Shown here: in pieces, positions 2,327-11,940 of the stretch
Layout: each line of letters opens with the position of its first letter
Position numbering within the stretch: position 1 is the stretch's first letter
DNA from: Bryobacterales bacterium
Lineage (GTDB): Bacteria > Acidobacteriota > Terriglobia > Bryobacterales > Bryobacteraceae
DNA: 13,201 nt
Reading direction: 5' to 3'
Assembly (NCBI GenBank): GCA_003142355.1
Contig: PLMF01000322.1
Coordinates: forward strand, 1-13,201
Program-made: the position numbers and the translations under genes
The notes under the pieces: generated by a model
Databases searched by the model: none
Told to the model about the DNA's origin: nothing
The model's input: the letters and a program-made list of their open reading frames with translations, nothing else

Positions 2327-3862
2327 CTACTTCGACCCAGCCTGGAGTGAGGCAATCGGCAACAGTTCTTGCGCGATCTGAAAACGCGGGTTTTCGGAAC
2401 CGTTGGTTTCGCTTCGTACCCGGCTCGAGATGTATCGGAACATCTCCGCCACTGTAACCTGCCTGTCTTGGTTCCAGTCGGCCTTGCCCTGAAGAGCTTC
2501 AACCACGGCCCGAGCGAACACGCTCTCGTATCCGCCGTTTGACGGCCGCTCGACTGAAACCTCATTCAGTCCACCGGAGACCAACACCGCGCGGCCTTCC
2601 TCTTTCGAGAAAAGCTTCAGGAGATAGTTGTTGACCAGGTTGCTGCCAGCTATCCTCCACTCCGGAGCGACTTTTCTCCCCACATCGAATGCGAGTACTG
2701 CGTGGCGTGAACGCACGTTTGAGGAGACTAACTGTTCGAGCTCGTTGAATCCCAGGCTTGTATCGGACAGTTGCTTCATCTGGGTATCGTACGCAGCCAA
2801 GAATAGATTATTCGCGTCCAGAGGGTCGTGCAGCCCATGAGAGGAGACATAGATCAGCATCAGATCATCAGGCTTTGCGAGAGCTACGAAATGGCGGAAT
2901 GCATTGCGGATCTTCGCCGCTGTCGCGTTCTCGTCGCGCAGCACCAAGACGTGGTCGGCGCGAAAACCCGCCTGCGATTCAAGAGTCGTCGCAATGTTCT
3001 CCGCGTCACTCGAGGCGGCGTAGAGGTCCGGCGGTCCTCCCGGCCGCACGCCAAAGCGAGAGATCCCCACAACTAATGCGTAGCGTTCCCCGGTGAACTG
3101 AGAAGGGGCCCTCTGACCCGACAGAACAACGGGCACGCTGATGCGCGTCCGGTTTCCGCTCTGGTCCGTGGCCGTGATTTCTATGTGCGAATCTTTTGGA
3201 GAGACCGTCACTTCCTGCTCGAACTCGGTATTGTTTCCAGAGGCATCGCCGGTCCAACGCGCGTTCTGGATAGTCAGCGCTGCTATTGGATGAGCCGAAT
3301 TGACAGTTCCTTTCACCCTCACGAGCCGGGGCCGATCGTTTGGTTCGAATATCACAGGGAATTCCGGTTGAACGATCAGCACATCCGGGGGGGCCCCGGT
3401 CTCGTCCCCAGGTGCGACGGCAGTCTCGTACGCGAACCACTCATTCCGAGCATCTTCGCGGGTGCGCAAGATGAAATTCTTGTAATAGCGCCTTCCCCGC
3501 TGGTCAGTGGCCGTGATCTCGAGCGCGTTGGACCCGGGCCTCAGATGAATATCTCTCCGCATTTTCAGGTTCATGCGGATGAACTTGCCCCGATCCGTGC
3601 TGCCGTACTGGCATATGGTGGTCGAGGCGTCGCCGTTGAGTTTGGAGTAAATCTGCCCGTAGGAAATACGGTCCGCAACAGGATTCAAAAGAGAGATGAC
3701 GATAGTGGAGACATCTTTGACGGGGAGTTCGATAACGTCCCCCTCAAAGATCTGGTCTCCAAATTCAGGAAGCTGCAGCTCGAAGAGTTTGGGTGGCGCC
3801 TGAGCGCGTGCCGAGGGCGCACCCACCAAACACACCCAAGCTATCGCTAAGATCGATCTCAC
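2327..3862 (-). CDS. Exported caspase-like (C14 fold) protein, catalytic Cys missing
   Basis: Encodes 511 residues from a GTG start 9 bp after the M48 stop; the next codons give a good signal peptide (1-20, cut after ARA). Two Ig-like or beta-sandwich modules seem present at about 95-135 and 165-247 (each has EITATDQ.G.R). The C14 caspase fold follows from 259: ERYALVVGIS, a D-A pair at 286-287, and the catalytic-type His342 in YVSSHG. The position that normally reads D-x-C-x-S/A-G is FDVGRK (392-397), with no Cys, so it is predicted to be a pseudo-protease. Residues 462-473 (DWNQDRQVTVAE) fit an EF-hand loop with acidic or amide residues at 1, 3, 5 and 12. It is the last gene of a minus-strand run and ends tail to tail with the tricorn gene. 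The role is unknown: a binding or scaffold function fits the lost Cys, but an unusual active site cannot be excluded. Confidence 0.82.
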   Translation of the reverse strand: MRSILAIAWVCLVGAPSARAQAPPKLFELQLPEFGDQIFEGDVIELPVKDVSTIVISLLNPVADRISYGQIYSKLNGDASTTICQYGSTDRGKFIRMNLKMRRDIHLRPGSNALEITATDQRGRRYYKNFILRTREDARNEWFAYETAVAPGDETGAPPDVLIVQPEFPVIFEPNDRPRLVRVKGTVNSAHPIAALTIQNARWTGDASGNNTEFEQEVTVSPKDSHIEITATDQSGNRTRISVPVVLSGQRAPSQFTGERYALVVGISRFGVRPGGPPDLYAASSDAENIATTLESQAGFRADHVLVLRDENATAAKIRNAFRHFVALAKPDDLMLIYVSSHGLHDPLDANNLFLAAYDTQMKQLSDTSLGFNELEQLVSSNVRSRHAVLAFDVGRKVAPEWRIAGSNLVNNYLLKLFSKEEGRAVLVSGGLNEVSVERPSNGGYESVFARAVVEALQGKADWNQDRQVTVAEMFRYISSRVRSETNGSENPRFQIAQELLPIASLQAGSK

Positions 3863-3871
3863 GGCTGCCTG

Positions 3872-5542
3872 CTACTTCTTCCTGAGCGGAAGGGGAAGCG
3901 GAATCAATCCCTTCTTTGCCGGAGGCGCAGGCTGGGGCTGCGAGGCGGGAACGGCCACGGAGGGCGCAGACGTTCCAACCGGCGTCAAACTGGCTGGTTG
4001 CAGGTCTGGGCTGTCGCCGCCATACACAAGAGGTGCATTCTCGGGCACTGTCGGCATCCAGCTATCCTCGCCGGTTAGCGTAAGATAATCGTAGATGGTA
4101 TCGAGGTTTGGAGGCAGCAGCGCCGTGCTCCGGGCGTTCGAGATCGAAAATGTGAGATAACCATCGACATAGCTCTTGAGTTCCTCAATAACCTGCGCCT
4201 GGTTCGCTTCGTTCTTCTCGCCCATTAGCGCCAACGCCAGGTGCAGGTGAGAACCAAAGTTCTGGTGCCGTTTATCGTACTTGGCCGCGGAAACGAAGGA
4301 TTGCTCGGCCAGTTTGGTTTCCTCCGGCGTGCGTGCCACCAACTCGAGCACCTTTCCGTAGAAATAGTTTGCGGTGGGATCGTTCGACCGAATACTTACG
4401 GCTTCGGACAGGTTCTTTTTCGCCAAGTCGAACATATCGTAGTAGTAGGCCATAATCCCGTTGTCCCGCTTCAACTCGGCCATGAGATGCCGATAGTCGG
4501 GATTGTCACCGATCAACACACCCGCCTTCTCCTTGGCTTCCAGGTCGGCCTTGTAAGCATTCCCAATGAGATCTTTTGCATTCTCCAGCCGCTCCCGAAC
4601 GCGTTTCCGGCTGCCGATGAAACCGAGGGCCACGCGATTGTCCTTTGCGGCGGAGTTTTGCAACGAAGCGTACAACTTCGGGACCTCTTTCACGTCATAA
4701 TTACACTTCAGCGCCGCCTTAAAGGCCACTTGGTCGGCCTCGTCCTCCTGAACTTTGTCCCAATCCAGGTTCATGCCCCGGTTTATCACCGCGCCCGCTA
4801 TGTATCCTCCTACACCGCCAACCAAAGCGCCAATTCCAGCGGATTGGGCGTCGCGCCCGATGGCCGCTCCTGTCGCGGCACCGGCAGCCACGCCGATCAA
4901 CCCCCACCACGCCCGCTTTGTTTCCTGTTTCTTGTTGTACTCGGGCTCGCCGAGTTTCATCATCGACTTTAGCCGCCAGTGGTCTTTGTATACATGGGCC
5001 ATCTCATGGCCCAGCACGTAGGAAAGCTGTGCCTCGTTATCCAATAGCGCCACGAGCCCCGTGGAGACGTATATCGTGCCCGTTGACAGCGTCTCGGCAA
5101 AGGGGATCGGGTGGGCCACGAGCCGGAATGCAAACAGCTTCTCGGAGTCATCCGGAACAAGCCGCTGTCCGATTCGGTTCACATAGTCCTGAATGACAAG
5201 GTTATCGTAAAGCGCACCATAATCATAGGACCGAAACCGGTCCTCATGAATCGCAACGGTCTGCGATCTCCGCGACACATTGCGCCGGAACGCATCCTCG
5301 CTATGCTGCTGCTGGACGAGGTCGAAGTCTCGATCGGCAGCATCCTTGAAATCCGTATCGTTGGCGTACAGGTCGAGCGAAAACTGTTTAAGCTTCTCGT
5401 AGGTTTGTTCATTCTTAGCGGCGGTCTTCTTTTCCTTGTCGCGCGTTTCGGCCGCCTTTTCCTCGGCGGTCTTCTTCGCACCAAACACGCCCGGCACAAG
5501 CGCCAGGGCGACACCAAGAACCACGATGCTGCGTATGTACAT
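3872..5542 (-). CDS. Exported M48-family zinc metallopeptidase with glycine zipper and TPR-like C-terminus
   Basis: Encodes 556 residues. A signal peptide covers about 1-21, followed by a Lys/Glu-rich helix. The zinc motif HEMAH lies at 179-183 and the third ligand in the M48 pattern E-x-x-x-D at 266-270 (EDEAD). Between the two zinc motifs, about 214-256 is a run of small residues with GxxxG and GxxxA spacing, which looks like a glycine-zipper membrane hairpin. TPR-like helices follow (about 355-460), then a Pro/Ala-rich tail. Known relatives such as BepA and LoiP act in the Gram-negative periplasm on outer-membrane protein quality control. A periplasmic or membrane-associated protease is the likely role here; its substrate is unknown. 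The ATG is supported by a GAGGTG ribosome site that overlaps the stop of the upstream TPR gene (8-bp gap), which indicates translational coupling. Confidence 0.88.
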   Translation of the reverse strand: MYIRSIVVLGVALALVPGVFGAKKTAEEKAAETRDKEKKTAAKNEQTYEKLKQFSLDLYANDTDFKDAADRDFDLVQQQHSEDAFRRNVSRRSQTVAIHEDRFRSYDYGALYDNLVIQDYVNRIGQRLVPDDSEKLFAFRLVAHPIPFAETLSTGTIYVSTGLVALLDNEAQLSYVLGHEMAHVYKDHWRLKSMMKLGEPEYNKKQETKRAWWGLIGVAAGAATGAAIGRDAQSAGIGALVGGVGGYIAGAVINRGMNLDWDKVQEDEADQVAFKAALKCNYDVKEVPKLYASLQNSAAKDNRVALGFIGSRKRVRERLENAKDLIGNAYKADLEAKEKAGVLIGDNPDYRHLMAELKRDNGIMAYYYDMFDLAKKNLSEAVSIRSNDPTANYFYGKVLELVARTPEETKLAEQSFVSAAKYDKRHQNFGSHLHLALALMGEKNEANQAQVIEELKSYVDGYLTFSISNARSTALLPPNLDTIYDYLTLTGEDSWMPTVPENAPLVYGGDSPDLQPASLTPVGTSAPSVAVPASQPQPAPPAKKGLIPLPLPLRKK

Positions 5543-5550
5543 TATTCACC

Positions 5551-6171
5551 TCATTTCTTTCTTGAAATATACTGCTCCACCATTTTCAGGAATAGACGTG
5601 TTTCGACATCAGACCAGGTTTTCGGCCGAAGGTTGTAGTTCTTCTTGTCCAGAGTCTTTATGTGGTAGGCTCCGGTTGCCTTACCGAATACGCGGTTGGT
5701 CTTAATTTCCAGGAATTCACCGGCTGGAATCACGAACGAGTGGCCGGGCACCGAAGATGTAAAGGCCAGGTGATCGCGATAGATCGACATCCGCCCGGTG
5801 CAGTAGTCGGAGATTTCACCGCCGCTGAGCTTGCCGAGTTTCTCGTGGGCGTGCTGCATCAGGAACGAAGCCCGGCCGCCCAATGCGATCGCCTTGTCCA
5901 TGTATTTGGCCGCGGTCACATCATCGGATTCTCCATAGAGGTAGCAGATGCCGAGGTTTTCGGCGATAGCCGGATCCGACTGGTCCTGCTCCCAGATTTC
6001 CTCGAGAACATTTATGGCCTGCTGGTACTTCCCTTTCTCGACGAGGTCCAACCCGATTCTTGACTGCTGCGCAAATCGGCCCGTGTTCTGAGCCTGCGAA
6101 GACGCGGCAAAGCCAAGCCACGCCACGGCTCCCAGCAGGAGCGCACCTCTGCGTGACGACGAAATTGTCAT
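5551..6171 (-). CDS. Exported TPR-repeat protein of unknown function
   Basis: Encodes 206 residues. A signal peptide covers 1-27 (SSQA|QN). Two TPR-like units lie at about 35-100 (GLDLVEKGKYQQAINVLEE and AENLGICYLYGESDDVTAAKYMDKAIALG). A beta-rich C-terminal half follows (about 118-190, YCTGRMSIYRDHLAFTS and FLEIKTNRVFG); this may be a PH-like fold, but that is a guess from strand pattern only. TPR modules bind peptides or partner proteins. Close coupling to the M48 gene downstream suggests it may present substrates to, or assemble with, that peptidase. It is separated from the upstream kinase gene by 72 bp, which hold a candidate promoter. Confidence 0.8.
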   Translation of the reverse strand: MTISSSRRGALLLGAVAWLGFAASSQAQNTGRFAQQSRIGLDLVEKGKYQQAINVLEEIWEQDQSDPAIAENLGICYLYGESDDVTAAKYMDKAIALGGRASFLMQHAHEKLGKLSGGEISDYCTGRMSIYRDHLAFTSSVPGHSFVIPAGEFLEIKTNRVFGKATGAYHIKTLDKKNYNLRPKTWSDVETRLFLKMVEQYISRKK

Positions 6172-6185
6172 GTAGGATCAGCAGT

Positions 6186-6214
6186 AGTATACGCCTAAAA
6201 TTTGGCGCAGTAAA
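6186..6214 (-). promoter_or_regulatory. Candidate promoter upstream of the TPR-M48-caspase genes
   Basis: On the minus strand, TTTACT (6214-6209) and TATACT (6191-6186) are separated by exactly 17 nt. The spacer holds an AT-rich core with CGCC/GGCG arms that could be an operator. The predicted transcript start would leave a leader of only about 8 nt before the ATG at 6171, with no clear ribosome site, so translation might be nearly leaderless. This is a sequence match only. Confidence 0.35.
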
Positions 6215-6243
6215 GGGAAATTGAGGTCTTTTCTTATTGAAAA

Positions 6244-8466
6244 CTATTTGTCGGACAGACAATAGAGGAACCGCTGAATGGAAGCCACATAAAGGCGGCC
6301 ATGGCGATCCATCGCCGGGGCGGCGTGGATCTCGTTCTGGAGATTGACTTTCCATACAAGCTCGCCGGCGTCACTGATAGCGTAGAAGTAACCGTCAGCC
6401 GAGCCAAAATAGGCTATGCCGGACGGGTCGATCGCTGGGGCCGAAAAGACCGGGCCCCGCGTCAAAAAGCGCCACCTGAGTTCGCCGCCTCGGACGCAAT
6501 ACAAATAGCCGTCGAAGCAGCCGAATATGACATCGCCGTTTTCTCGAACGGCCGGGGCGGCGGTGATCTTGACCGGCGCACGATAGGACCAGCGGCTTTT
6601 CCCGAGGCGACTGACGCAGTGCAGAATTCCCTTCGCCGTTCCGACGTAGAGATTCCCTGCGCCGTCCAGTACGACGGGGGTGGAAGGCAAGTCGCCGAGG
6701 TCGAAGTTCCAGGAGGAGTGGCCGGCCTCCAGGAGAGTAGAGCCGGTTATGTAGTAAATGCCCAAATCCGGCGATTGCGCATAGTCATAGGGCAGCAAGA
6801 TGGAGCGTCCGGAATTCAGCCGCTGGCCGGCGCTACTGACCTGGAACACGTTGCCGCTTATATCCTTGACGTGGAGGTTCCCTGTGGCATCGAGGGAGAG
6901 TAGGAAAGCGCCGGCTGTCTCGACCCTGTGGTTCCACAAAACTCGACCGTCACGCACAGCAAAGAGCGTTCCGTCGATCGTTCCCGCGAAGACCGTTCCA
7001 TCAAACCCGATCACGGGAGAAGTTCGAAGTTGCCCACCTAGTTCGGCCCTCCAGACAATTCGCGGCTCATGAGCGGGTCCCAGTACAGCGGTGACGCCAT
7101 TGTGTTGGAAATTGCCTCGGAAAACAGCCCACTGGGGTGACAGAGCCGGGGTTCGCACCGGCACAGGGCTCGCAGTAAGAGGTAGAGAGTCACTTGGTAC
7201 GGATGAGACGTTCGGCTTCTCGTCCGAAGTAGCCGGATGGACATCACGAACCGGACGGGCCCCTGAGCTGCCGGCGGTAATTTGCCCACCAGATTGATCA
7301 CTGCGTTGGCTACCACCAGTTGCGGGTGGTGGCGCTTGAGACGGCGGGTTCTTGTCTGGTTGGCTCGGCGGAACCTGGTTGTTCAATGGCGGCTTGTTGT
7401 TGCCGCCGCTTGAGTGGTCTGGACGCAAACGATAATAAGCTGTCCCCGCGAGCAGTCCGACCACAAGGAACACTGCGCCAGCCAACCATGCGGCCCTCGA
7501 ACGCCGAGCGGGGCTTTCAGGCTCCGTTTGGGAATACCGGCCCACAGGGGTCAAGACAGATCGTGTGCCCACAACAGCCAAGCCAGGCGCGGCAATCCCG
7601 CTGTTTTCGGCCGAGCCGGATTCGAGGGCGATATGCCATTCGTCGGACAAGTTCAGAGCCGCACCCAAAGCGTTTGCGAATCCCGTGCAGGTACTGTAAC
7701 GCTGAGCGGGCTGCTTATCCAAGGCTTTCGCCAAAACGCCTTCCACTTGATCTCCCAATGTGGGATTCGAAAGACTGACTGGCGCCGGGCGCTCGTGGAG
7801 GATCTGATAGAACAGCGCCGTAAGTGTCTCCCCCTGAAAGGGCCGGCGGCGCGTCAGAAGTTCATAGGCGATCACGCCAAGCGCGAACTGGTCCGTTCTC
7901 CCATCTACAGCCTTGCCTTCGATCTGTTCAGGCGACATGTAGCTCGGACTACCCACTGCCCAGCCTGTCTGCGTCTTGACCCCCTGTTCTCCAACAATTC
8001 TGGCCACTCCGAAATCACAGACCTTCACTGTTCCGTCTTCAGCAATCAGGATGTTCGCCGGCTTGATATCACGGTGGATGATCCCCTTCGAGTGAGCGTA
8101 ATCCAGCGCAGATGCCGTCTGCGCGATGATCTCAAGCACTTTTTGCTTTGAGAAAGCGTAGTCTGCCTGGCGGAGTTTGTCGAGCGACGGCCCGCTCACG
8201 AATTCCATTGCGATGTAGGCAGCGTCGCCTTGTTCAAGGATTTGATAGATCGTAACGATGTTCGGATGGGATAGAGTTCCTGCCGCGCGGGCCTCACGAA
8301 AGAAACGGTCTTTCAAAAACGATTGCTGTTCCGGCGCATCCGAGGGAAGAAGGTGAAATGTCTTGATTGCGATTGTGCGCCCGATGACTGGGTCGACTGC
8401 CTGGTAGACAATTCCCATGCCTCCCCGGCCTAATTCCCGGAGGATACGATACGGGCCAATTTGCAT
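6244..8466 (-). CDS. Membrane Ser/Thr protein kinase with extracytoplasmic PQQ-like beta-propeller
   Basis: Encodes 740 residues. A Hanks-type kinase domain spans about 5-270 with all key motifs: GRGGMG loop (13-18), catalytic Lys35, Glu58, HRD with Asp133, Asn138, DFG (151-153) and SPE (178-180). A basic-flanked transmembrane helix lies at about 327-345, then a Pro/Ser/Gln-rich linker at 350-445. A PQQ/pyrrolo-quinoline-type propeller fills 446-740, with repeats of the type DGTVFAGTIDGTLFAV and NGDVIFGCFDGYLYCV. The topology implies a cytoplasmic kinase and an exported sensor or binding propeller. The substrate and ligand are unknown. The gene starts 55 bp after the PAAR ORF on the same strand. 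PpkA-type kinases are known to control type VI secretion, which makes a link to the upstream PAAR and DcrB genes plausible, but this kinase has no feature that proves it. Confidence 0.93.
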   Translation of the reverse strand: MQIGPYRILRELGRGGMGIVYQAVDPVIGRTIAIKTFHLLPSDAPEQQSFLKDRFFREARAAGTLSHPNIVTIYQILEQGDAAYIAMEFVSGPSLDKLRQADYAFSKQKVLEIIAQTASALDYAHSKGIIHRDIKPANILIAEDGTVKVCDFGVARIVGEQGVKTQTGWAVGSPSYMSPEQIEGKAVDGRTDQFALGVIAYELLTRRRPFQGETLTALFYQILHERPAPVSLSNPTLGDQVEGVLAKALDKQPAQRYSTCTGFANALGAALNLSDEWHIALESGSAENSGIAAPGLAVVGTRSVLTPVGRYSQTEPESPARRSRAAWLAGAVFLVVGLLAGTAYYRLRPDHSSGGNNKPPLNNQVPPSQPDKNPPSQAPPPATGGSQRSDQSGGQITAGSSGARPVRDVHPATSDEKPNVSSVPSDSLPLTASPVPVRTPALSPQWAVFRGNFQHNGVTAVLGPAHEPRIVWRAELGGQLRTSPVIGFDGTVFAGTIDGTLFAVRDGRVLWNHRVETAGAFLLSLDATGNLHVKDISGNVFQVSSAGQRLNSGRSILLPYDYAQSPDLGIYYITGSTLLEAGHSSWNFDLGDLPSTPVVLDGAGNLYVGTAKGILHCVSRLGKSRWSYRAPVKITAAPAVRENGDVIFGCFDGYLYCVRGGELRWRFLTRGPVFSAPAIDPSGIAYFGSADGYFYAISDAGELVWKVNLQNEIHAAPAMDRHGRLYVASIQRFLYCLSDK

Positions 8467-8481
8467 AATCGGAACAACGCA

Positions 8482-8500
8482 ATTCTAGCTCACTGTGAGC
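8482..8500 (-). promoter_or_regulatory. Palindrome plus -10-like box ahead of the kinase gene
   Basis: A perfect 6-bp inverted repeat with a 1-nt centre (GCTCACTGTGAGC, 8488-8500) abuts TAGAAT (8487-8482), a 5-of-6 match to a -10 box, 15 bp before the kinase ATG. No convincing -35 is visible at 17 nt. The loop is too short for a terminator hairpin, so a protein-binding operator is the better guess. The match may be chance. Confidence 0.25.
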
Positions 8501-8521
8501 CGTACTTCCACAGCACCATGG

Positions 8522-8701
8522 TCAGCGCAACGAAAGTGAGGCTGCATCCGAGAAGACACAAACCGGTGACGGCGCGGAAGAGCCGCCGATCTCAACCGTG
8601 GGGCAACCGGCCGGCAACGCTGGCCCGACGACGTGTGGCTTCGGACCTGGATCCATCGTCGGGCACGTATGCGCGTCGCCAACTCGGGCAGCAGGAGGCA
8701 C
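8522..8701 (-). CDS. Short PAAR-domain (spike tip) protein, apparently truncated
   Basis: Encodes 59 residues from GTG. The ribosome site AGGAAGG overlaps the stop codon of the DcrB-like gene, giving a 15-bp gap and likely coupling. Residues 2-40 match the first half of PAAR proteins of the PPAARVGD...C..PH..GP..P.GCPTV.IGG type: PPAARVGDAHTCP at 2-14, PHVVGP at 22-27, and GCPTVEIGG at 32-40. In type VI and related injection systems, PAAR proteins bind zinc, sharpen the VgrG spike and carry cargo. Complete PAAR domains have about 90-100 residues. Here the second half (a further PAAR.GD and a final IGG) is replaced by 19 residues without similarity to it, so the protein may be degenerate or frameshifted. 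The homology is clear; whether it still works is not. Confidence 0.72.
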   Translation of the reverse strand: MPPAARVGDAHTCPTMDPGPKPHVVGPALPAGCPTVEIGGSSAPSPVCVFSDAASLSLR

Positions 8702-8716
8702 GGAATTGTAACCTTC

Positions 8717-9751
8717 CTATGTTTGGCCGGTGCCTACCACCGGGACCGACAACGATGCCACCACCATCTCGTAGGCCCGTTTGGCCCGCATCCATGCCAC
8801 GGGGTTCACGGTCTTGCCCGGACACAGCATCACCGCCGACAGCCACCCGAACGGTGCACGACGAAACAATAGGGCAACTTCACCTTTTCCCGAAGGTAGG
8901 GTGCACGTGCCAACCCACCGTTCCTTCGGCTTGGCGAGCGTTCCGCCAGGTACTGGATCGAGACGGTCCACTACAACACCCGATTCCTCGACCTCCTGCA
9001 CTGTGAGCAGAAACACCTGCTCCATCCCGGATTCAGTCGGTGGGATCCGCGTATCGGCCGCCACGCGAAGGTACGCCAAAGTGTCGGTGTCGCTGGTCAG
9101 CCGGAAATTGACGCCGCCCTTTGCAGGCCGCAACGAGTCTTCCGTGTCGTGGGACCAGGAGGACGGATGGAGAACCTGAAACAATCCTCCGGCATCCGTG
9201 AACACCTCCAACAGCTCTCTGGTCTTCTGACGGTGGAGATGAGTGAATTCGAAACTCGCGGCCGCAAGGCCGAGAATCTCCTTCACGCTGTCGGGCGCCG
9301 CGAACGGCGCCCTGCCCAACAGGAGGACCACCTTGGGCCCGTTACCTTTCGTGAGGAACCGTAGAAACGCGCCATCGCCGGCGCGTGCGACGCCGTGTAC
9401 AGTCTGCCCACTCTCCGTCTCGGCCGACTTCACGTTGAGAAGAGTGAAGCCCTGACGATGGGCAAGGAATTCCAACCAGTCGATCAGGTTCACCTCGAAG
9501 CGCAAGAGAGTTGCGAAAACCTGAACACTGATTTCGTCCGACTCGCGATAGGCGGCCAGTAGAGAGAAAGCATCCGCTTGGAGTGGCGGGGCGGGGAGAT
9601 TGGCTACCTGCGCCCAGTTTCTCGGCAACACGACCCGGAAGCTCAGATCCGGGTCCGCCGGCGGCGTGAAAGAGATCGACCCGAACGCGCTACCAAGCGA
9701 TTTGTCCGGTATCGCGTCGCCGAATGAGATGCGGATGTCGTCGTTCGCCAT
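8717..9751 (-). CDS. Tandem DcrB/DUF1795-like protein, possible Eag-type cargo chaperone
   Basis: Encodes 344 residues with no signal peptide or membrane helix, so it is likely cytoplasmic. Two similar halves are visible. Each has a hydrophobic strand ending in a Pro-x-x-Trp turn (FRVVLPRNWAQV at 38-49; FQVLHPSSWS at 191-200). Each has a RAPF motif (147-150 and 298-301) followed by a long helix (VKEILGLAAASFEF; AYEMVVASLSV). This fits two copies of the DcrB/PsbP/Mog1-like fold. Single-domain DUF1795 (Eag) proteins chaperone type VI effectors and load them on PAAR or VgrG. The gene begins 1 nt after the stop of the upstream Ala/Gly-rich gene and runs into the PAAR ORF, which supports that role. 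The family assignment is from pattern, not alignment. Confidence 0.7.
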   Translation of the reverse strand: MANDDIRISFGDAIPDKSLGSAFGSISFTPPADPDLSFRVVLPRNWAQVANLPAPPLQADAFSLLAAYRESDEISVQVFATLLRFEVNLIDWLEFLAHRQGFTLLNVKSAETESGQTVHGVARAGDGAFLRFLTKGNGPKVVLLLGRAPFAAPDSVKEILGLAAASFEFTHLHRQKTRELLEVFTDAGGLFQVLHPSSWSHDTEDSLRPAKGGVNFRLTSDTDTLAYLRVAADTRIPPTESGMEQVFLLTVQEVEESGVVVDRLDPVPGGTLAKPKERWVGTCTLPSGKGEVALLFRRAPFGWLSAVMLCPGKTVNPVAWMRAKRAYEMVVASLSVPVVGTGQT

Positions 9752-9752
9752 G

Positions 9753-10847
9753 CTACTTGAAGCCTATCTTGAAATTCAGTCCGCCACCCAACCCTAGCCC
9801 CACCTTGGCCGATGCGCCAAGGGTATATCCGTCCTCTTCGGTCCAGCCTGCCTGTGCGTTGGCTTCCGCGGATGCTCCAATCTCACCCTCCGCGCCGCCC
9901 CCCAAAGTAAGCGTGTGGCCGAACGGCAGCGGGATCTTAAAGGAACCTCCTACATCGGCCTTCACCAAATCGACACTGGCGCCCACCTTCGCCTGAACAA
10001 CCTTGGCCTTGTCATCCCAATCCGCGCCCACCTTGGCTTCCGCTTCCACATGATCGAGTTCGACAGAGCCGTCGACCTCGGCGGCGCCGCCGAGAAAGTC
10101 CTTCTGGCCCTGGGCGCTGATGGCTGAACCCTCAACAGAAGCGTCGATCAGGTTAAGCGAACCCCCTCCGTCCGAAGCCGTGAACCCCGAAGTCGCACTC
10201 GCCTCGTAGCTGAACAGGCTGATGTTGTTCTTGTCGTCTCCGAACTTTGCCGCGGCACCGTTCTTGTCAAACCATGTATGACTGACGCCCGCCGACGCCT
10301 CCAGCTTACCGTCGTCACCGGTTTCGACCTTGGCAAACGCTTCGCTTTTCTTCCACCACGCGCCGATCTTCTGTTTGGCCGCGGCCCCAATCTTCTCGAT
10401 TGCCTTCAGAACCGCGGGTGCTGTATGGGCGGGCAAACCGCGGCCCTGGCTGGCTGATGCGGCTACCGGCGGGGACGACTGGGCCGGTGGTTTTGTCCGT
10501 GGGGAAGAAGTGCGCGACGACGATGCGCGGGCAGTCTTCACGGGCGGTGGCACAGTTTCAGCACTCCCAGCGCCTTCGTCAGCCGACCCGGCCCAGGAAA
10601 AGGCCTGGAGCGATCTGGGGCGATAATAATTCACGGCACTGGGATCGAAGGGGCCGTCGCCATGGTAAAACCAAGCATCTTTATGGACCCAAGCTGCGAA
10701 GGAGCGCCACCCTTCAGTCCACACCGCAACGGCACGCCCGGTTTGGGAGACCGCGAGCGCCTCTAGTCTCGAGATTCTCTCCCAATCCCAAGGCCGAGTG
10801 AAAACGTCGTCCGGCACGGGCGGAAAGTTTCGAAGTGGCTCATTCAT
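9753..10847 (-). CDS. Ala/Gly-rich beta-repeat protein of unknown function, candidate secreted cargo
   Basis: Encodes 364 residues from the ATG at 10847. An in-frame extension to 10997 was rejected because it is antisense to the tricorn repeat. I do not recognise the N-terminal domain (about 1-88), which is rich in Trp and aromatics (TRPWDWERI, WTEGWRSFAAWVHKDAWFYHGDGPFD). A Ser/Pro/Thr/Arg linker covers about 96-140, then a cationic amphipathic helix at about 144-172 (KAIEKIGAAAKQKIGAWWKK). Residues 173-364 are alternating Ala/Gly-rich strands (EASAGVSH, EAKVGADWD, AKVGASVDLVKADVGG, GASAKVGLGLGGGLNF). Similar amphipathic Ala/Gly-rich segments occur in some polymorphic-toxin and injection-system proteins, but no toxin active site is visible. 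No Cys and no signal peptide were seen. Its place ahead of DcrB-like and PAAR genes makes it a candidate cargo. This is inference. Confidence 0.75.
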   Translation of the reverse strand: MNEPLRNFPPVPDDVFTRPWDWERISRLEALAVSQTGRAVAVWTEGWRSFAAWVHKDAWFYHGDGPFDPSAVNYYRPRSLQAFSWAGSADEGAGSAETVPPPVKTARASSSRTSSPRTKPPAQSSPPVAASASQGRGLPAHTAPAVLKAIEKIGAAAKQKIGAWWKKSEAFAKVETGDDGKLEASAGVSHTWFDKNGAAAKFGDDKNNISLFSYEASATSGFTASDGGGSLNLIDASVEGSAISAQGQKDFLGGAAEVDGSVELDHVEAEAKVGADWDDKAKVVQAKVGASVDLVKADVGGSFKIPLPFGHTLTLGGGAEGEIGASAEANAQAGWTEEDGYTLGASAKVGLGLGGGLNFKIGFK

Positions 10848-10944: not shown

Positions 10945-11940
10945 CCGGACCAGGTCGCTCTGGCGGCGCTGGGAGCGCGCCTGGTTCGCGATGCCAAGGC
11001 CGGAGGCTACCTGGTCGAGCACATTTATCGATCCGACCCGGACCGTCCCGACCGCAAATCGCCGCTGGCGCAGTCCGGCGTGGACATTGCCGACGGCGAC
11101 GTTCTGCTGGCGGCGAACGGCCGCGATCTGCTGTCGGTCGCCGATCCGGCGGAACTGTTGCGCAACCAGGCCGGCAAGCAGGTGCTGATGCGCGTGCGCC
11201 CGAAAGACAAGACCGAGCCGCGCGACGTCATCGTGAAGCCGGTTACCATGCAGCAGGAAGCCGACCTGCGTTACGCCGAATGGGAGTACACGCGGCGGCT
11301 GGCCGTGGACCAGGTGTCCGCCGGGAAGATCGGCTATGTGCACCTGCGCGCCATGGGATCCAGCGATATCAGCCAGTGGGTGGAGCAGTACATCCCGGTC
11401 TTCACGCGCGACGGCCTGATTATCGATGTCCGTCATAACGGGGGCGGCAACATCGATAGCTGGATTCTCGACAAGCTGATGCGCAAGGCCTGGATGTATT
11501 GGCAGACGCGAACCGGCAAACCGTTTTGGAACATGCAGCAGGCGTTCCGCGGCCACATGGTGGTGCTGTGCGATGAGTTCACCGGGTCGGATGGCGAGGC
11601 TTTCACCGAGGGGTTCCGCCGGCTCGGGCTGGGCAAGGTGATCGGGACGCGCACCTGGGGCGGAGAGATCTGGCTCACCTCGAGCAATCGTCTGGCGGAC
11701 CGCGGAATCGCGACGGCCGCCGAATGGGGCGTATTCGGTTCCGATCGTCAATGGCTGATCGAGGGCCACGGCGTGGATCCGGATCTGGTAGTCGACAATC
11801 TTCCGCATGCGACCTTCGAGGGCCGGGACGCGCAGTTGCAAGCGGCCATCGAATATCTGAAAACCGAGATCCGGAATAAGCCCATCGAGCAGCCCGCGCC
11901 GCCGAAGTATCCGGACAAGTCCTTCAAGTATCCGGCGGAG
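10945..11940 (+). repeat. Right copy of ~1-kb direct repeat
   Basis: Colinear with 1285-2280 on the same strand, about 95% identical with no gap. Mismatches are uneven: 1951-2162 against 11611-11822 differs at a single base (2088/11748), and 1831-1922 against 11491-11582 at none, while the rest differs by roughly 6%. The uneven pattern could come from gene conversion or from strong constraint on the catalytic core. Confidence 0.95.

Follow-up and report, generated by a model that had tools for sequence, protein, structure and literature searches.

A truncated PAAR sequence beside a tandem Mog1-fold protein: a possible orphaned type VI secretion cassette in a Bryobacterales contig

On the minus strand of a 13,201-nucleotide (nt) contig of a Bryobacterales bacterium (PLMF01000322.1, assembly GCA_003142355.1; the whole stretch is called the window below), the list of open reading frames (ORFs) gives three ORFs between 8522 and 10847. 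In the order of transcription, they are an Ala/Gly-rich ORF (the cargo), a DcrB-like gene, and a short ORF with similarity to PAAR proteins (the PAAR ORF; Table 1). From its alignments, the PAAR ORF is a genuine PAAR sequence with only the first of three repeats, and hence a truncated tip. On the basis of homology, gene order, the fold (as modelled), and the truncation, we tentatively read the trio, with a likelihood a little short of even, as an orphaned and partly decayed PAAR-effector cassette of a type VI secretion system (T6SS), in which the tandem Mog1-fold protein would be a loading adaptor.

The PAAR ORF

The PAAR ORF matches the Pfam family PF05488 over positions 24–54 of the 70 of the profile (E = 5e-4). 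At 20.7 bits, the score is under the curated cut-off of 27, and the check proposed in the initial annotation thus gives a match but not membership by cut-off. In the PDB (phmmer), there is one clear match over residues 1–43, to SalCis10 (9rce; E = 1.8e-4), which we judge from the alignment to be a PAAR protein. Named PAAR chains of T6SSs score weakly (8gra, E = 0.27; 4jiv, E = 2.1). In a large protein database, 16 of 22 candidates match at E ≤ 0.001 (best 4.4e-10), and all 16 are 95–99 amino acids (aa) long. Shorter relatives were eligible and none turned up; the search admitted only proteins of about 32–103 aa, with longer PAAR fusions outside its range.

The homology covers less than half of a PAAR domain. 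A hidden Markov model (HMM) was built from 12 full-length rows, 11 of the 16 database matches and the sequence of a related locus (L001, see below). It aligns with the frame of the PAAR ORF at 53 bits (E = 6e-16) over positions 1–43 of 96, and has, with default filters, no match in 95,375 frames of at least 30 aa from 300 single-base shuffles of the window. With the 16 relatives as tblastn queries, the best match starts at 8701 in the window and ends at 8573 or 8585 in 14 cases and, with a four-residue gap, at 8555 in the other two. Repeats 2 and 3 are absent from all six frames of the window (pieces of at least 12 aa; next best E = 2.1). Three DxxxC/H motifs occur in 12 of the 12 full-length rows but one in the window ORF. 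The extent of the HMM match, the single motif, and the absence of the remainder from every frame of the window leave one of the three repeats that form the zinc-bound cone. In the part of PMC7773334 available, the DxxxH motifs are given as required for zinc coordination in orphan PAARs, typically with four His/Cys ligands. Repeat 1 of the PAAR ORF keeps a DxxxC motif, as does L001, against the DxxxH of prePAAR.

Among the other frames beyond the break, one is hydrophobic and none contains PAAR; they are provisionally taken as non-coding. In another frame of the minus strand, a transmembrane (TM)-like hydrophobic stretch at about 8490–8590 lies over the break, probably by chance.

No protein identical to the PAAR ORF was returned by the relative search in the large protein database. 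Its neighbours are present there, as an identical DcrB-like protein (P0001) and as a cluster (P0012) that corresponds to 62% of the cargo, so the PAAR ORF was either not called or not kept. In effect, it was overlooked, as the initial annotation had it; that it is too short for ordinary ORF calling is a loose statement, 59 codons being within the normal reach of gene callers. The PAAR similarity of this GTG-started ORF, the overlap of its ribosome-binding site with the stop codon of the DcrB-like gene, and the start of the latter 1 nt after the cargo gene were all correctly described. The view that the ORF completes a module of three genes does not hold, since only 43 of about 96 residues are there, and PAAR is not a third gene in L001, where it is the N-terminus of the cargo.

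The cargo and the related T6SS locus

L001 is a 24,027-bp contig of a Verrucomicrobia metagenome-assembled genome (MAG), one of two loci from a scan of genome contigs that used two peptide patterns only. In the direction of transcription, the genes there are TssB, TssC, Hcp, ImpE, gp25 (TssE), TssF, TssG, and a ClpV-type ATPase. Next come a 426-aa ORF, a 209-aa ORF, VgrG, a DUF4123 protein, and two ORFs without T6SS matches, then a 315-aa DcrB-like paralogue (DcrB-A), a 407-aa PAAR–Ala/Gly fusion and, 1 nt later, a DcrB-like relative. The 407-aa protein begins with a complete PAAR (79 bits) and continues into the Ala/Gly domain, with which the C-terminal 178 residues of the window cargo are 55% identical; the two DcrB-like proteins are 36% identical. 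On account of the gene order, the 1-nt spacing, and the common cargo domain, the cargo/DcrB-like pair of the window is the same unit as the pair in the T6SS locus. TssK, DotU, and IcmF_N (PF14331) lie together on another contig of the MAG, in a genome that encodes a T6SS; the IcmF-related PF06761 was not found in that genome. In the MAG, the completeness of which is not stated, PF05488 has one match, the fusion protein (the only PAAR found), and PF08786 has none. DcrB-A (L001:7683-8630) is a distant DcrB-like protein (hhalign probability 90%, E 1.5e-6) and sits upstream of the PAAR fusion gene, the usual site of Eag genes.

L001 thus has, within a T6SS cluster, the arrangement of PAAR-fusion effectors, with a full PAAR fused to a cargo domain of the window type. 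In the window, by contrast, cargo and PAAR are separate, the PAAR is encoded behind the DcrB-like gene, and no PAAR is present at the N-terminus of the cargo. For the first 150 aa of the cargo, neither L001 nor L004 contains a convincing relative (best E 1.2). The true start of the cargo ORF is uncertain: P0012, which represents 10 contigs with lengths of up to 33,855 bp, corresponds to the last 227 residues and begins at a TTG after the first 137 codons, and codons 1–137 are without the codon-position GC pattern of the remainder. From this one sequence, we infer decay, in which the PAAR fusion would have been lost (rather than gained in L001), leaving the remnant of PAAR behind the DcrB-like gene and an unrelated N-terminus on the cargo.

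An S41 protease gene (tricorn-type) is partly duplicated in the window, with 95.2% identity and no gaps between 10945–11940 and 1285–2280 (996 nt). The copies are in direct orientation and bracket the whole minus-strand gene cluster. Since the 10945–11940 copy lies immediately upstream of the cargo, a rearrangement of the cassette stretch is likely.

The tandem Mog1/PsbP-fold protein

By Foldseek and structure comparison, the model of the DcrB-like protein has a tandem Mog1/PsbP/DcrB fold, in line with the fold assigned to the partner in the initial annotation. This fold is common to the Eag chaperones (DUF1795/PF08786; EagT6, SciW), and is similar to that of the T6SS immunity proteins Tli4, TplEi, and Tsi3. 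Sequence likeness between the two halves was not detected (hhalign probability 0.3%), so the tandem is defined by fold. Among the 6 families matched by 12 members of the DcrB-like family at E ≤ 10, PF08786 does not figure, and the window protein is not recognized by Pfam, NCBIfam, PHROGs, or PADLOC. It has no signal sequence visible by eye and no TM-like segment (crude hydropathy).

The differences from Eags are several. Eags are domain-swapped dimers according to the accessible part of PMC12881460, whereas the window protein has two domains in one 344-aa chain; it also lacks a PF08786 match, and its gene is placed after the cargo. Eag partners combine the prePAAR motif AARxxDxxxH with N-terminal transmembrane domains (TMDs), a combination found neither in the window, where the cargo is without TMD and the PAAR without the motif, nor in L001, where the only TM-like stretch of the fusion lies at the end of PAAR (crude hydropathy). 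The T6SS link made in the initial annotation is upheld as to the setting, through the L001 cluster, but not as to the classical Eag/DUF1795 reading.

A PsbP/MOG1-like adaptor has already been proposed in T6SS operons of polymorphic toxins (PMC3482391), and is alike in fold, neighbourhood, and proposed job; in the part of that account available, neither a tandem two-domain form nor a cargo of the window type is described. DcrB genes surround >90% of one PAAR class, according to the available part of PMC8651086. The DcrB/PAAR partnership is thus of a known kind. What is new is that both domains sit in a single chain, alongside a cargo without clear TMD. Titles and abstract openings among the literature matches listed mention neither a tandem DcrB-like T6SS adaptor nor a one-repeat PAAR.

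Gene order links the two-domain family to a PAAR-fusion cargo that belongs to the T6SS of a little-studied lineage. It has no match in plasmids, phages, or viral contigs (the last with a pattern-limited search), and neither has the cargo. In samples around the genome of L001, which overlap and each take in that genome itself, the family has matches in 1/387 genomes of the phylum, 2/320 of the order, and 1/384 of the class. The second match of the order (L010, E = 5.8e-4) was dropped, as it reads antisense to ordinary metabolic genes. The cargo domain has matches in 2/387 genomes of the phylum sample; the second of them, in L007 (E = 8.5e-4), was also dropped, being apparently a chance similarity between Ala/Gly-rich sequences. 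A match in an archaeal MAG (L002; 23% identity over residues 195–334, E = 4e-6 within candidates only) was set aside as probably due to chance.

Proposed mechanism and alternatives

PAAR proteins cap the VgrG spike. In the intact relative, the complete N-terminal PAAR of the cargo would do so, and the C-terminal Ala/Gly domain would travel with it into the target. The tandem Mog1/PsbP-fold protein is predicted to remain in the cytoplasm and to bind the PAAR–cargo protein, which it would load or stabilize on the spike for secretion. A single chain that contains the fold twice would then do the work of the Eag dimer, on a cargo without clear transmembrane segment. The window copy may have lost its function, or may depend on a PAAR and a VgrG elsewhere; with a cargo without fused PAAR and one repeat of three in the PAAR ORF, the cassette most likely cannot build the tip itself. 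The window may show how T6SS effector cassettes break apart and persist as orphans.

Several observations weigh against an adaptor in a decayed cassette. The window cargo has no TM-like segment (crude hydropathy), and so no TMD for a clamp of the Eag type. Its structure model is unreliable (predicted local distance difference test 30.7, 3 sequences), and its toxicity is putative only. L001 is the only relative with readable gene context. A good Shine–Dalgarno sequence and an open frame still precede the PAAR stub, which may yet be translated.

The DcrB-like gene follows the cargo directly, a position that would fit an immunity gene, as for TplEi, Tli4, and Tsi3, two of which (TplEi and Tli4) also extend over two domains. 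The tandem protein could thus confer immunity against the Ala/Gly cargo, with DcrB-A as the chaperone in L001 and the cassette still a broken T6SS one; we regard this reading as a close rival of the adaptor, only somewhat less likely. If true, the pair would be a new effector–immunity pair. TplEi ranks second in Foldseek (E 1.5e-6, 341 alignment columns), the E values of DcrB (1.5e-3) and SciW (5.3e-3) being far weaker, and on the N domain TplEi (9.5) is level with EagT6 (9.3). The superposition of TplEi on the full protein is, however, poor (TM-score 0.24, root-mean-square deviation 22), and the N domain is better fitted by PsbP, Mog1, and DcrB. These immunity proteins are periplasmic, whereas in the window protein neither a signal sequence nor a TM-like segment is apparent. 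The family counts 11 database proteins against 2 for the cargo domain (about 8000 candidates scored in each search), unlike a strict pairing. In the available part of PMC3482391, PsbP/MOG1 is listed as fused to an immunity family, in agreement with an immunity role.

If the metagenome assembly were wrong or chimeric there, both the interrupted PAAR and the unusual N-terminal part of the cargo would be artefacts, and the S41 copy just upstream of the cargo marks a spot where such errors can arise. This is very unlikely, as the missing repeats are not merely frame-shifted; the 10 contigs of P0012 also speak against it, but P0012 does not cover the PAAR break. It is likewise very unlikely that the cassette is intact and the 59-aa product a working short PAAR, either as a trimer or combined in trans with a further piece of PAAR. 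The open frame, the good Shine–Dalgarno sequence over the upstream stop, and the conserved DxxxC of repeat 1 would agree with it, and for Tse6 a PAAR that is split within a single protein has been described (PMC7773334). Yet no relative is shorter than 95 aa, no second piece lies in any frame of the window, and the homology stops abruptly before an unmatched tail. Most improbable of all is that a microprotein with a single PAAR repeat, coupled in translation to the single-chain adaptor, trimerizes into a truly three-fold symmetric tip with a separate Ala/Gly cargo. Such a T6SS tip would be put together from detached parts, instead of the usual pseudo-symmetric one.

Gene order and surroundings

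Table 1. Elements of the putative cassette (coordinates in the window)
Element	Position	Strand	Description
Ala/Gly-rich cargo ORF	9753..10847	−	C-terminal 178 aa related to the PAAR fusion of L001; N-terminus without PAAR
Tandem Mog1/PsbP/DcrB-fold protein	8717..9751	−	344 aa; domains at about 16–172 and 180–338; no TM-like segment
Ribosome-binding site of the PAAR ORF	8712..8718	−	AGGAAGG; overlaps the DcrB-like stop codon, TAG (8717–8719); from sequence
Truncated PAAR ORF	8522..8701	−	59 aa, GTG start; PAAR repeat 1 at 8573–8701, then non-PAAR tail
From end of PAAR homology to kinase gene	8467..8572	−	Another frame hydrophobic and unrelated; no PAAR

The ATG of the DcrB-like gene is placed 1 nt past the stop codon of the cargo. 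Between 8300 and 11100, no consensus promoter or terminator was found (shuffles gave 0.5 and 2.9). A Ser/Thr kinase gene with a PQQ-type propeller begins 55 nt after the PAAR ORF, and is followed on the same strand (2327–8466) by TPR, M48 peptidase, and caspase-domain genes. In L001, a Ser/Thr kinase gene also occurs downstream of the T6SS module (13904–15418), as does a DUF6931 protein (L001:11143-11859; PF22011, 76.8 bits). The 426-aa ORF of L001, with a strongly hydrophobic segment, and the 209-aa ORF (L001:1506-3419), which separate the ClpV-type gene from vgrG, may form another effector–immunity pair.
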